Positions 1,166 through 6,437 of a stretch of DNA of 6,607 nt are shown one piece after another (positions within the stretch are counted from its first letter, which is position 1; the number at the start of each line of letters is the position of its first letter). This DNA comes from Candidatus Mcinerneyibacteriota bacterium (GTDB taxonomy: Bacteria > AUK180 > JAQVHJ01). The stretch lies in the NCBI GenBank assembly GCA_030630935.1, contig DAOVMD010000175.1, positions 1 to 6,607 on the forward strand. Reading direction: 5' to 3'. Made by a program: the position numbers and the translations under genes. The notes below the pieces were generated by a model, which worked only from the letters and a program-made list of their open reading frames with translations, ran no database searches and was not told the origin of the DNA.

Positions 1166-1284
1166 GTTTGAATTGTTGTATTGGAATGCATCGATGGTAA
1201 TCGATGGGGTGCAAGCACCCTGTATAATGCATTGATTCATAGAATTCATCAATGCACTCCAAACTCTACGATAACACTTCAACA
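1166..1284 (+). repeat. intergenic hairpin element A
   Basis: The core is an imperfect inverted repeat: 1181-1196 (TTGGAATGCATCGATG) and 1247-1262 (CATCAATGCACTCCAA) pair at 14 of 16 positions. The homology of the arms extends outward in a gapped way to about 1166 and 1284. Inside lie GGGTGC/GCACCC (1207-1220) and a second stem, TGCATTGAT (1228-1236) with ATCAATGCA (1248-1256), which uses the same right arm as the outer stem. A related copy, element B, lies at 5476-5536. The two copies share arms, while their central regions differ. This looks like a miniature dispersed repeat or structured element; it encodes no protein. Confidence 0.65.
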
Positions 1285-1285
1285 T

Positions 1286-1361
1286 TTGAACACATGCGAA
1301 GCAGGCATTGAACATCTGAACACTTGAACGCATGCGAAGCATGCATTGAACACTTGAACAC
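1286..1361 (+). repeat. two tandem 38-bp repeat units
   Basis: Units 1286-1323 and 1324-1361 are the same length and differ at only four positions. Each holds TTGAAC, a GCATGCGAAGCATGC-type mini-hairpin (perfect in the second unit: GCATGC, GAA, GCATGC), CATTGAAC and a final TGAACAC. The same pieces recur at 5442-5466 next to element B. The array ends about 27 bases before the promoter of the OmpA-family gene. Confidence 0.7.
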
Positions 1362-2343: not shown

Positions 2344-4350
2344 TTATTTAATTATTACAAACTTACCAATTCTTTTCTCACCTTTATCATTTGAAATTAC
2401 ATAAAGATAAACACCTGATGCAACACTCTTACCAGCTTCAGTTTTAAGATTCCAGGGATAATTAATATTATCAGGTTTTAGTTCAATTAAAAGTTCACCT
2501 GAAATAGTATATATCTTGATATAACTATTTACTGTCAGCTTTGCAAATATAATTGAATCTTCTCCCGTTTCAGGTTTCCAGGGATTTGGATAAACAAAAA
2601 CATCTTTCAGATTCTCAGCAAAAGTTATAAAATCTGCATCATTAATATCACAATTTAAATTAGTATAAGTCCTTTTTACAGGTGTAAATATACTATTCGT
2701 CTTTGTGGGTATAATAATGTATGTTGCACCAGCATTTAAATTATTAAATGAGTAATTGCCATTTGAATCTACAATTGTATTTGCTTTGGAATCTCCCCTT
2801 AGTTTAACTGTAACATTTGGTAATGTATTAACTCCATCAGTAATCGTTCCACTAATTGACCATTGGTTAAAAGTTCCTGTAAAATTTGCGTCATTTACAT
2901 CACCACTTAAATTAGTATAAGTCATATTCATTGGCATAAATTTCCAATAGAGATTTGTGGGTGTGATAACATAGTTCAAGCCAGCAGTTAAATCATTAAA
3001 TGAGTAATTTCCATTTGAATCTGTTATGATACTTGCAGTAAAATCTCCTGTTAAATTAACTGTAATATTTGAAATTGGATTAGCTCCATCAGTAATAGTT
3101 CCATTTAAATTATATAACGCTTTATATTTTCTTGTCCAAACATTACCATATTGCCCTAAATCATTTCTCTTTTCATATCCGGTAACATATACATTTCCAG
3201 CAGTATCTACTGCAATGCCATATCCTCTATCATCATCATTATTAGGTGAATTATATGTTATTGTCCAGATCTCATTACCATTATTATCATATTTCCTGAC
3301 CCAGATATTATAACCCTGTCCTAAATCACTTCTACTTTCAGCGCCGACGACATATACATTTCCAGCAGGATCTACTGTGATATCATAACCATAATCTTCT
3401 CTATTATTAGGTGAATTATATGTAGAAGTCCAGACCTCATAACCGCTACTATTATATTTCCTGGTCCAGATATTATGATCCTGTCCTAAATCACTTCGAT
3501 CTTCATATCCGGTAACATATACATTTCCGAAAGTATCTACTGCGATACCAAAACCTTCATCATAACTATTATTAGACGAATTATATGTCGAAGTCCAAAC
3601 TTCATAACCGTTACTATCATATTTCCTGATCCAAATATTCCTAAGTTCCCCTATATCGCTTCTATATTCAGAGCCAGTAACATATACATTTCCGGCAGTA
3701 TCTACTGCGATACTAATACCAAAATCTGCACTATTATTAGGTGAATTATATGTAGAAGTCCAAACCTCATAACCGTTACTATCATATTTCCTGGTCCAGA
3801 TATTGTTCCCTTCTCCTAAATCATCTCTATATTCATATCCGATAACATATACATTCCCGGTACTATCTACTGTGATATCTGAACCAACATCAATATTATT
3901 ATTAGGCGAGTTATATGTAGAAGTCCAGATCTCATAACCATTACTATCATATTTCCTGGTCCAAATATGAGAACCATGTCCTAAATCGGTTCTATTTTCA
4001 CCACCTGTAACATATACATTTCCAAGAGTATCTACTGCGATACCAATACCCAAATCTCTACTATTATTAGGTGAATTATATGTAGAAGTCCAGACAACAT
4101 AACCATTACTGTCATATTTCCTGGTCCAGATATTATGATCCTGACCTAAATCACTTCGATCTTCATATCCGGTAACATATACATTCCCGACATGATCTAC
4201 TGCGATACTAATACCTTCATCATAACTATTATTAGGCGAATTATATGTAGAAGTCCAATCAACTACTACATCATCTCCAAAAACTGAAGTAAATAGAAAA
4301 AACAAACAAACAATGAAAACAAATAGATACCTAACGTAATTTCTTCTCAT
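2344..4350 (-). CDS. secreted SBBP-repeat beta-propeller protein with FlgD-Ig-like C-terminus
   Basis: This encodes a 668-residue exported protein of unknown ligand. Residues 1-25 are a signal peptide. Seven tandem 55-residue units start at Tyr36 and carry YNSPNN, GNVYVTG, DLG, IWTRKYDSNG and WTST. They match the SBBP (seven-bladed beta-propeller) repeat, and the seventh stops after RKY at 409. Two Cna_B/carboxypeptidase-regulatory-like beta-sandwich domains follow at about 414-495 and 498-577, repeated with an 84-residue period (GTITDG, DSNGNYSFN, TYTNL). The C-terminus, 583-668, has VYPNPWKP, KIYTISGEL, an ASGVYLYVI strand and a basic GKFVIIK end, as in FlgD-Ig/type IX-like sorting domains. 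The ATG has AGGAG (4358-4362) 7 bases upstream. The gene is monocistronic and convergent with the OmpA-family gene. A surface or extracellular location is inferred; whether the tail is a true type IX signal depends on the host having that system. Confidence 0.92.
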   Translation of the reverse strand: MRRNYVRYLFVFIVCLFFLFTSVFGDDVVVDWTSTYNSPNNSYDEGISIAVDHVGNVYVTGYEDRSDLGQDHNIWTRKYDSNGYVVWTSTYNSPNNSRDLGIGIAVDTLGNVYVTGGENRTDLGHGSHIWTRKYDSNGYEIWTSTYNSPNNNIDVGSDITVDSTGNVYVIGYEYRDDLGEGNNIWTRKYDSNGYEVWTSTYNSPNNSADFGISIAVDTAGNVYVTGSEYRSDIGELRNIWIRKYDSNGYEVWTSTYNSSNNSYDEGFGIAVDTFGNVYVTGYEDRSDLGQDHNIWTRKYNSSGYEVWTSTYNSPNNREDYGYDITVDPAGNVYVVGAESRSDLGQGYNIWVRKYDNNGNEIWTITYNSPNNDDDRGYGIAVDTAGNVYVTGYEKRNDLGQYGNVWTRKYKALYNLNGTITDGANPISNITVNLTGDFTASIITDSNGNYSFNDLTAGLNYVITPTNLYWKFMPMNMTYTNLSGDVNDANFTGTFNQWSISGTITDGVNTLPNVTVKLRGDSKANTIVDSNGNYSFNNLNAGATYIIIPTKTNSIFTPVKRTYTNLNCDINDADFITFAENLKDVFVYPNPWKPETGEDSIIFAKLTVNSYIKIYTISGELLIELKPDNINYPWNLKTEAGKSVASGVYLYVISNDKGEKRIGKFVIIK
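3124..4245 (-). repeat. seven in-frame 165-bp coding repeats
   Basis: Units begin every 165 bases from 4245 downward; the seventh is truncated (3124-3255). Units 1 and 5 are far more alike at the DNA level than expected: 4121-4190 and 3461-3530 differ at only two of 70 positions. This suggests recent duplication or gene conversion inside the propeller. Within units, the glycine/asparagine turns and the GNVYVTG strand are the most constant parts, and the segment after the YNSPNN motif is the most variable. Confidence 0.9.
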
Positions 4351-5433: not shown

Positions 5434-5558
5434 CTACAATAACACTTGAACGCATGCAAAGCATACTTTTCTGTATCGGAATGCATCGATGCAAGGTTTT
5501 CTGCATTGATTCACCGAGTTCATCAATGCACTCCAAAAATCTACAATAACACTTGAAC
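5434..5558 (+). repeat. intergenic hairpin element B with flanking direct repeats
   Basis: The core has arms at 5476-5491 and 5521-5536 that match element A (1181-1196, 1247-1262) almost base for base, plus the same inner stem TGCATTGAT/ATCAATGCA (5502-5510, 5522-5530) with an 11-base loop. The centre is shorter than in A and lacks its GGGTGC hairpin. A perfect 18-bp direct repeat, CTACAATAACACTTGAAC, flanks the element at 5434-5451 and 5541-5558. The second copy lies inside the end of the neighbouring gene. Whether this is a target duplication or a repeat module is open. Confidence 0.65.
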
Positions 5559-6437
5559 ATTTTCGACCCTCTCTGTTAAATACCATTTTATTCTACCTAT
5601 TCGAATTGTTTTCCGAAAGAAAGTAGAATTTGTATGCCATTTACCTTTCTTATCAAGACAGCCGGGAATAGTTTTATCAATTGACTGGAAGATCTCAGTT
5701 GAAGTTGTTATTCCTAAAAAGGCCTTATTAAAACCTAACTTAACGCTGAAGAGAAATCCTTCCTTTTGGAAATACTCCTTTGACTTCTCATCAAGATGAA
5801 AACTGAGGATATGAGCTCTTTCAGAATTCACCATATCAAAATCACTTTTCTTTAAAAACATTTTTATGATCTGTGAATTGCTCTGTTCAACATAATCAAT
5901 CATAGTAGGTAATAGGGTTTCTCTACCATACCTTTGTTTTTTTGCAAAATACGAATATTGCGTCAAGGTAGTATGTCTTTCAAGTTTATACCGATAACTA
6001 TCTGTTGTATACTTAACTGGAAGTTTCCTCGTAATATTTATAAATAACTCCTCAAGTTCATTCCAGATCTCCTTCGCTACAAAATAAGCACCAAAAACTG
6101 AAACGATTGATTCAATTGAAATAAGGCTTGCAGGTTTAATTCTCCAGAAAACAAGTACAATAATTATTCCGACCATAATTCCAAAGACTTGATTGAAACT
6201 CTTTATAATCTTTCTATATGCTGATTTCTTTGATAATAATAAGTCATTCACATACTCTTCATAAGGATTAAAAGAAATATTATTCGAATCAATTTCTCTG
6301 CTGTAAGGATAGAGAACAAGGTGACAATCAATACTCGAGTACTTTTTCAATGTTGGAATATTACATAACTCCACATCATAAATCTGGGGATATTCTGAAT
6401 TTTGTTTTATGTCAATTATATTTTCCGGTATTTTCAT
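5541..6437 (-). CDS. two-transmembrane-segment protein of unknown family
   Basis: I do not recognise this 298-residue protein. Residues 1-80 are soluble and rich in Ile, Asn and Tyr. Two hydrophobic segments, about 84-99 and 104-121, form a tight hairpin with a short KPAS turn, which would place both ends on the same, probably cytoplasmic, side. An acidic amphipathic stretch (KEIWNELEELF, 122-132) follows. Residues 140-298 are a basic, mixed alpha/beta soluble region with no motif I can assign. There is no signal peptide. The ATG at 6437 is the only good start, since an in-frame stop (TAG) lies shortly upstream and the next Met is inside the first membrane segment. No Shine-Dalgarno sequence precedes it, and the promoter at 6447-6476 would leave a leader of only about 3 bases. 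The last six residues and the stop codon are encoded by an intergenic repeat copy, so the original C-terminus may have differed. It is coding in appearance, function unknown. Confidence 0.75.
   Translation of the reverse strand: MKIPENIIDIKQNSEYPQIYDVELCNIPTLKKYSSIDCHLVLYPYSREIDSNNISFNPYEEYVNDLLLSKKSAYRKIIKSFNQVFGIMVGIIIVLVFWRIKPASLISIESIVSVFGAYFVAKEIWNELEELFINITRKLPVKYTTDSYRYKLERHTTLTQYSYFAKKQRYGRETLLPTMIDYVEQSNSQIIKMFLKKSDFDMVNSERAHILSFHLDEKSKEYFQKEGFLFSVKLGFNKAFLGITTSTEIFQSIDKTIPGCLDKKGKWHTNSTFFRKTIRIGRIKWYLTERVENVQVLL

Follow-up and report, generated by a model that had tools for sequence, protein, structure and literature searches.

A window of 6,607 nucleotides of bacterial genomic DNA contains two diverged repeats, element A (1181-1262) and element B (5476-5536), in which one arm has a choice of two mutually exclusive pairing partners, and this raises the question of what kind of element they represent. 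The explanation that we favour, with a probability of roughly 70%, is that in both A and B two different REP-like units stand head to head as a heterodimer of the REPIN/BIME type, each unit bearing a 5' TWT-GGAR tag, and that mobilisation would depend on a Y1/HUH enzyme.

Pairing options of elements A and B

The two pairings that the original prediction had described in element A are both present where it had placed them: 1181-1196 is complementary to 1247-1262 at 14 of 16 positions, and 1228-1236 forms a 9-bp stem without mismatch with 1248-1256. Element B was confirmed to keep both options, as an outer pairing of GGAATGCATCGATG (5478-5491) with CATCAATGCACTCC (5521-5534) and a local 9-bp stem (5502-5510/5522-5530). 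The first reading had not noticed that element A also has a left local hairpin (1189-1195/1200-1206) and, adjoining it, a spacer hairpin, GGGTG-CAAG-CACCC (1207-1220), or that an unpaired tag stands at each end, plus-strand GGAA at one and minus-strand GGAG at the other. In element B the left hairpin is reduced to one arm, the second having been lost in a deletion of 10 nt that lies between ATCGATG repeats, as judged against loci L006 and L007. The features are as follows.

1183-1206, plus strand: L-type unit of A, with tag GGAA (1183-1186), arm TGCATCGAT (1187-1195), loop GGTA (1196-1199) and arm ATCGATG (1200-1206); the DNA fold pairs 1189-1195 with 1200-1206
1207-1220, no strand assigned: spacer hairpin of A, from the fold, with copies in loci L002, L003 and L009
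1228-1260, minus strand: R-type unit of A, with tag GGAG (1257-1260), stem 1248-1256/1228-1236 and an 11-nt loop, from the fold
1261-1275, minus strand: flank outside the R tag of A, GTTATCGTAGAGTTT; several other R units adjoin the related GTTATTGTAGATTTT
5478-5493, plus strand: degenerate L-type unit of B, with tag GGAA and one arm kept, the second lost in the deletion; from the fold and comparison with L006 and L007
5502-5534, minus strand: R-type unit of B, with tag GGAG (5531-5534) and stem 5522-5530/5502-5510, from the fold
5535-5550, minus strand: conserved R-side flank of B, GTTATTGTAGATTTTT

The fold of element A was more stable than all 200 dinucleotide shuffles on either strand, both as DNA (z of -3.9 and -4.4 for the two strands) and as RNA (-3.4 and -4.2). 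As DNA, element B folds more weakly (z of -1.9 and -1.6), and its minus strand as RNA folds strongly (-4.7). In the RNA folds, the R-to-L strand of both elements favours the long hairpin, and the other strand of A favours the local hairpins.

Short repeats of the AACACTTGAACATTTGAAC type with GCATGCGAAGCATGC palindromes occur around the elements, in the window (1273-1360) and at many other loci. A minus-strand open reading frame (5541-6437) extends at its 3' end (within 5541-5600) into the repeat that flanks element B, so that its last residues are encoded by the repeat. Tandem 165-bp repeats (about 76% alike) lie at 3124-4248, within an open reading frame (2344-4350) that matches the SBBP beta-propeller repeat.

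Family members and covariation

The original prediction would have been weakened had the genome held few copies; in the source genome, an 80% complete bin of 3.16 Mb in 471 contigs, blastn with the element returned many, namely 49 matches. Arm patterns with up to two mismatches were found at 68 and 74 places, compared to 3 and 1 for reversed-pattern controls, and these two lists overlap because the R and L arms differ at two positions. The working list comprises 30 R-type candidate arms, GGAG-TGCATTGAT...ATCAATGCA, and about 39 L-type candidate arms, GGAA-TGCATCGAT-gnta-ATCGATGCA, of which a few with two mismatches are probably chance matches (those at L135, L143 and L144, for example, have no second arm). 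From these searches and the fetched stretches of the genome, the whole family is estimated at about 70-100 units.

Each unit consists of a 9-bp stem-loop with an unpaired TWT-GGAR tag on one side only. Sixteen head-to-head pairs with outward tags, 57-176 nt in length, were identified, and every one of them joins an R to an L unit; spacing is mostly 57-115 nt, with a single 176-nt form, and the spacer hairpin of element A is common to other dimers spanning 78-93 nt. The remaining units are solo or in tandem (on one contig, C357, four L units follow one another in tandem), solo halves being about as frequent as dimers. Units in dimers were somewhat more alike than solo units (0.971 versus 0.952 for R, 0.964 versus 0.923 for L, with no significance test), which resembles REPINs, whose singlets are more diverged than doublets (Bertels and Rainey 2011, PMC3116915).

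In L025 (position 74), L048, L052, L054 and L055 the R unit is longer, its first arm being followed by extra sequence that contains hairpins of its own, and GAATCAATGCA lies further downstream in L025, L052 and L054. At other loci a unit retains its tag and 5' arm, and in place of the rest of the hairpin a different repeat follows at once, TCTCAAGCAAC...GTTGCTTGA or a near match (L192 minus strand 336, L200:298, L201 minus strand 311, L219:307, L224:308, L132:1529 and L137 minus strand 1489).

A sister group of units, M (GGAG-TGCATCA...TGATGC), has the same tag and foot with a different upper stem; its forms include GGAG-TGCATCAGG...CCTGATGCA, GGAG-TGCATCACG...CGTGATGCA and variants of these, and on contig C240 two different M units are paired head to head. 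Outside the source genome, the exact L pattern had no match in genome_contigs, and the R and M patterns had none in viral_contigs. The dimer consensus gave weak short matches only in G001-G007, G022 and G035, and the M pattern gave scattered one-mismatch matches in G001-G006, those inspected having no repeated hairpin. Beyond such weak short matches, the family was found neither in the same-family relative (G001) nor in five genomes of the same class.

Covariation was assessed in 71 units with at least 7 of 9 stem pairs, 41 of them distinct. At four stem pairs both sides had changed, in 44 cells where the shuffles averaged 13.6, and the local stem scored 0.416 compared to 0.212 in shuffles, none of 500 reaching as high, with the proviso that these shuffles ignore relatedness and that R, L and M are only a few events apart; slid controls were far lower. 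Selecting the 3' arms by complementarity inflated pairing, and in a control for this selection 9/9 pairing was seen in 35 of 113 candidates as against 0.4% in shuffled downstream sequence. Since paired bases change together across the subfamilies, the local hairpins are supported, and, as in REPs, the compensatory changes preserve the stem. The original prediction had held that two exclusive stems are retained in the diverged copies, and this is borne out for the local stems, but not for the outer stem, which in 15 dimers had no double-sided change and a covariation score like that of its shuffles. The dimer-only alignment varies too little for the stems to be tested, and nothing in it favours the outer one. 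Column 10 of the outer stem is U-G in all 14 readable copies and column 4 is G-U in 13 of 15, both corresponding to A-C mismatches on the other strand. We read the long outer stem as a by-product of two related units in inverted orientation.

Tag and candidate transposases

Because most units had been found by patterns containing the tag, a tag-free hairpin search was run on 261 kb of long contig stretches and on the loci of the whole-element search, whose blastn query itself had included the tag. R and L hairpins were recovered with GGAG, GGAA, GGAT or TGAA on one side and variable sequence on the opposite side. Before the tag, T is found at -3 and -1, with W between, in 26/26 R units and in 23/23 M units; these positions are looser in L units. 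As in REPs, the conserved tag is unpaired and precedes the hairpin foot on its 5' side, with no counterpart on the other side. Its sequence, GGAG, GGAA or GGAT, falls outside the GTAG superfamily, in which GTAG and the permitted GYAG, GYRG, GTRG, GTMG and GTGG occur (PMC3733652), and it is not the CGTC of the other REP superfamily. A text search of the literature for GGAG together with repetitive extragenic palindromes, which was not exhaustive, returned nothing related. In biochemical studies the tetranucleotide participates in recognition and in the choice of cleavage site, with a tolerance that varies between systems (PMC8266576), and recognition of a GGAR tag by a related enzyme is therefore plausible by analogy.

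Classical GTAG-tagged palindromes are present in the same genome as well, e.g. GTAGGGGCGAAGGGCCTTCGCCC and GTAGCCCAGCAATTCATTGCTGGG (L173:885, L177:13920, L188:250, L181 minus strand, L050:1442 and others), and GTAG precedes 8 hairpins in the 261 kb compared to 0.7 expected.

By analogy with known REPs, the best explanation for the family is that a Y1 transposase mobilises it. A unit would fold as a hairpin in a single-stranded DNA intermediate of the kind known from REP biology, a Y1/HUH transposase, presumably of the RAYT type, would recognise the tag together with the hairpin and nick nearby, and copies of the dimer would enter further extragenic sites. The two rival stems would then be two folds of one dimer, with the units folded separately or joined in one long hairpin.

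Target-site duplications were absent from 15 dimers (2.8 observed, 2.8 under the null), which fits enzymes of the IS200/IS605 type and speaks against a MITE of a DDE-type insertion sequence. Such a MITE, whose terminal inverted repeats would be the outer repeats of 14-16 bp and in which the local hairpins would be incidental, could account for paired copies with inverted ends of this length at a spacing of 57-115 nt, including the one 176-nt form. We consider it unlikely, as many units are solo and single-ended or lie in same-direction tandems, each pair of ends combines R and L and has constant mismatches, and covariation favours the local hairpins.

Three Y1_Tnp genes, whose presence favours the REPIN reading, were found in the 80% complete bin, one of them cut at a contig start, and their readable flanks contain no units of this family; a REPtron, in which the RAYT or Y1_Tnp gene is flanked by the same units, was thus not seen in the sequence at hand, an absence that in a bin of this completeness is not proof. 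Y1 genes in G000-G006 are flanked by other inverted repeats and by none of these units. Many in the relatives G001-G006 have inverted repeats of their own, often starting with GGGGACGGT. Repeats beside many Y1 genes of G002-G006 (loci L157-L169) start with GGGGACGG or close to it, and their inner parts differ from copy to copy but agree at both ends of any one copy. Somewhat tentatively, TWT-GGAR may constitute a third REP tag class beside GTAG and CGTC, which would either have its own transposase or be moved in trans by resident Y1 proteins whose genes carry unrelated terminal repeats.

Genomic setting and comparison with known repeats

Only 2 of 52 element sites lie inside predicted genes, although 83% of the 261 kb codes (according to a simple hexamer gene caller); as with REPs, many copies of a short palindrome occupy extragenic space. 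The 29 sites with both neighbours fell into 15 unidirectional, 12 divergent and 2 convergent gaps, compared to 46%, 32% and 22% of gap bases, respectively. A contig end is no more than 400 bp away from 22 arms, against 9 expected, as would be the case for assembly-breaking repeats. By a rough visual count, R units tend to lie on the upstream side of the adjacent gene, an orientation bias toward gene starts that is suggestive only.

These data also bear on a structured regulatory RNA or 5' leader, in which the two alternative folds would act as a switch. The strand-dependent RNA folds, the scarcity of convergent gaps and the tendency of R units toward gene starts are all in its favour, but no consistent neighbouring gene was noticed and either orientation occurs, the outer stem lacks covariation, an Rfam search of the elements gave nothing at or above the gathering score, and solo halves are as common as dimers; we regard this explanation as improbable. 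Bidirectional transcription terminators or hairpins that stabilise mRNA, multiplied through ordinary recombination, which would fit stable hairpins in intergenic gaps and the T runs after some units, are very improbable given the 2 of 29 convergent sites, and they would leave the conserved unpaired tag unexplained.

The REPIN/BIME reading agrees with several features of described systems. GTAG REPs and their head-to-head dimers (Di Nocera et al. 2013, PMC3733652) are likewise palindromes of 20-40 nt with an unpaired tag at one end, occurring extragenically in solo, head-to-head and tandem forms, and separate or joint folding, heterodimers and hairpin-bearing spacers are known among them as here. 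They differ in that the present tag is TWTGGAR, the present stems are not GC-rich and no cognate RAYT was found in the bin, and in that classical REPs lie mostly between unidirectional and convergent genes, whereas few sites here, in small numbers, are convergent. The 16 R/L dimers, as their folds indicate, can form one long hairpin from two inverted units, as do the REP doublets of REPINs (PMC3116915), but their halves are always different subtypes and their copy number is far lower. In IS200/IS605 elements the foot of the subterminal hairpins is likewise preceded, immediately on its 5' side, by a tetranucleotide, although here the two hairpins are inverted and have no gene between them.

Against the REPIN reading stand the lack of these units in the readable flanks of the three Y1_Tnp genes, the difference of GGAR from GTAG and CGTC and the small size of the family for REPs, and recombination among decayed copies could also account for the subfamilies with no need of mobility at present. 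The original prediction of a structured RNA or a mobile hairpin, as opposed to random repeats, holds in that these are dispersed, extragenic, structurally conserved and tagged palindromes, but no RNA-specific sign such as an Rfam match accompanies them. The sequence feature is real and is a member of a REP-like family with an unusual tag.

Which transposase can act on a REP is determined by tag and hairpin jointly. If an uncultured lineage carries a coherent family tagged with GGAR, in which the stems have diversified and the foot has stayed constant, the range of known tags would grow, and the units would supply natural substrates for studying how much variation of the guide tetranucleotide HUH transposases tolerate. 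In repeats of this kind, competing stems would be explained without an RNA switch, and the family as a whole looks like REP/REPIN-like tiny mobile DNA with an unusual GGAG-type tag.
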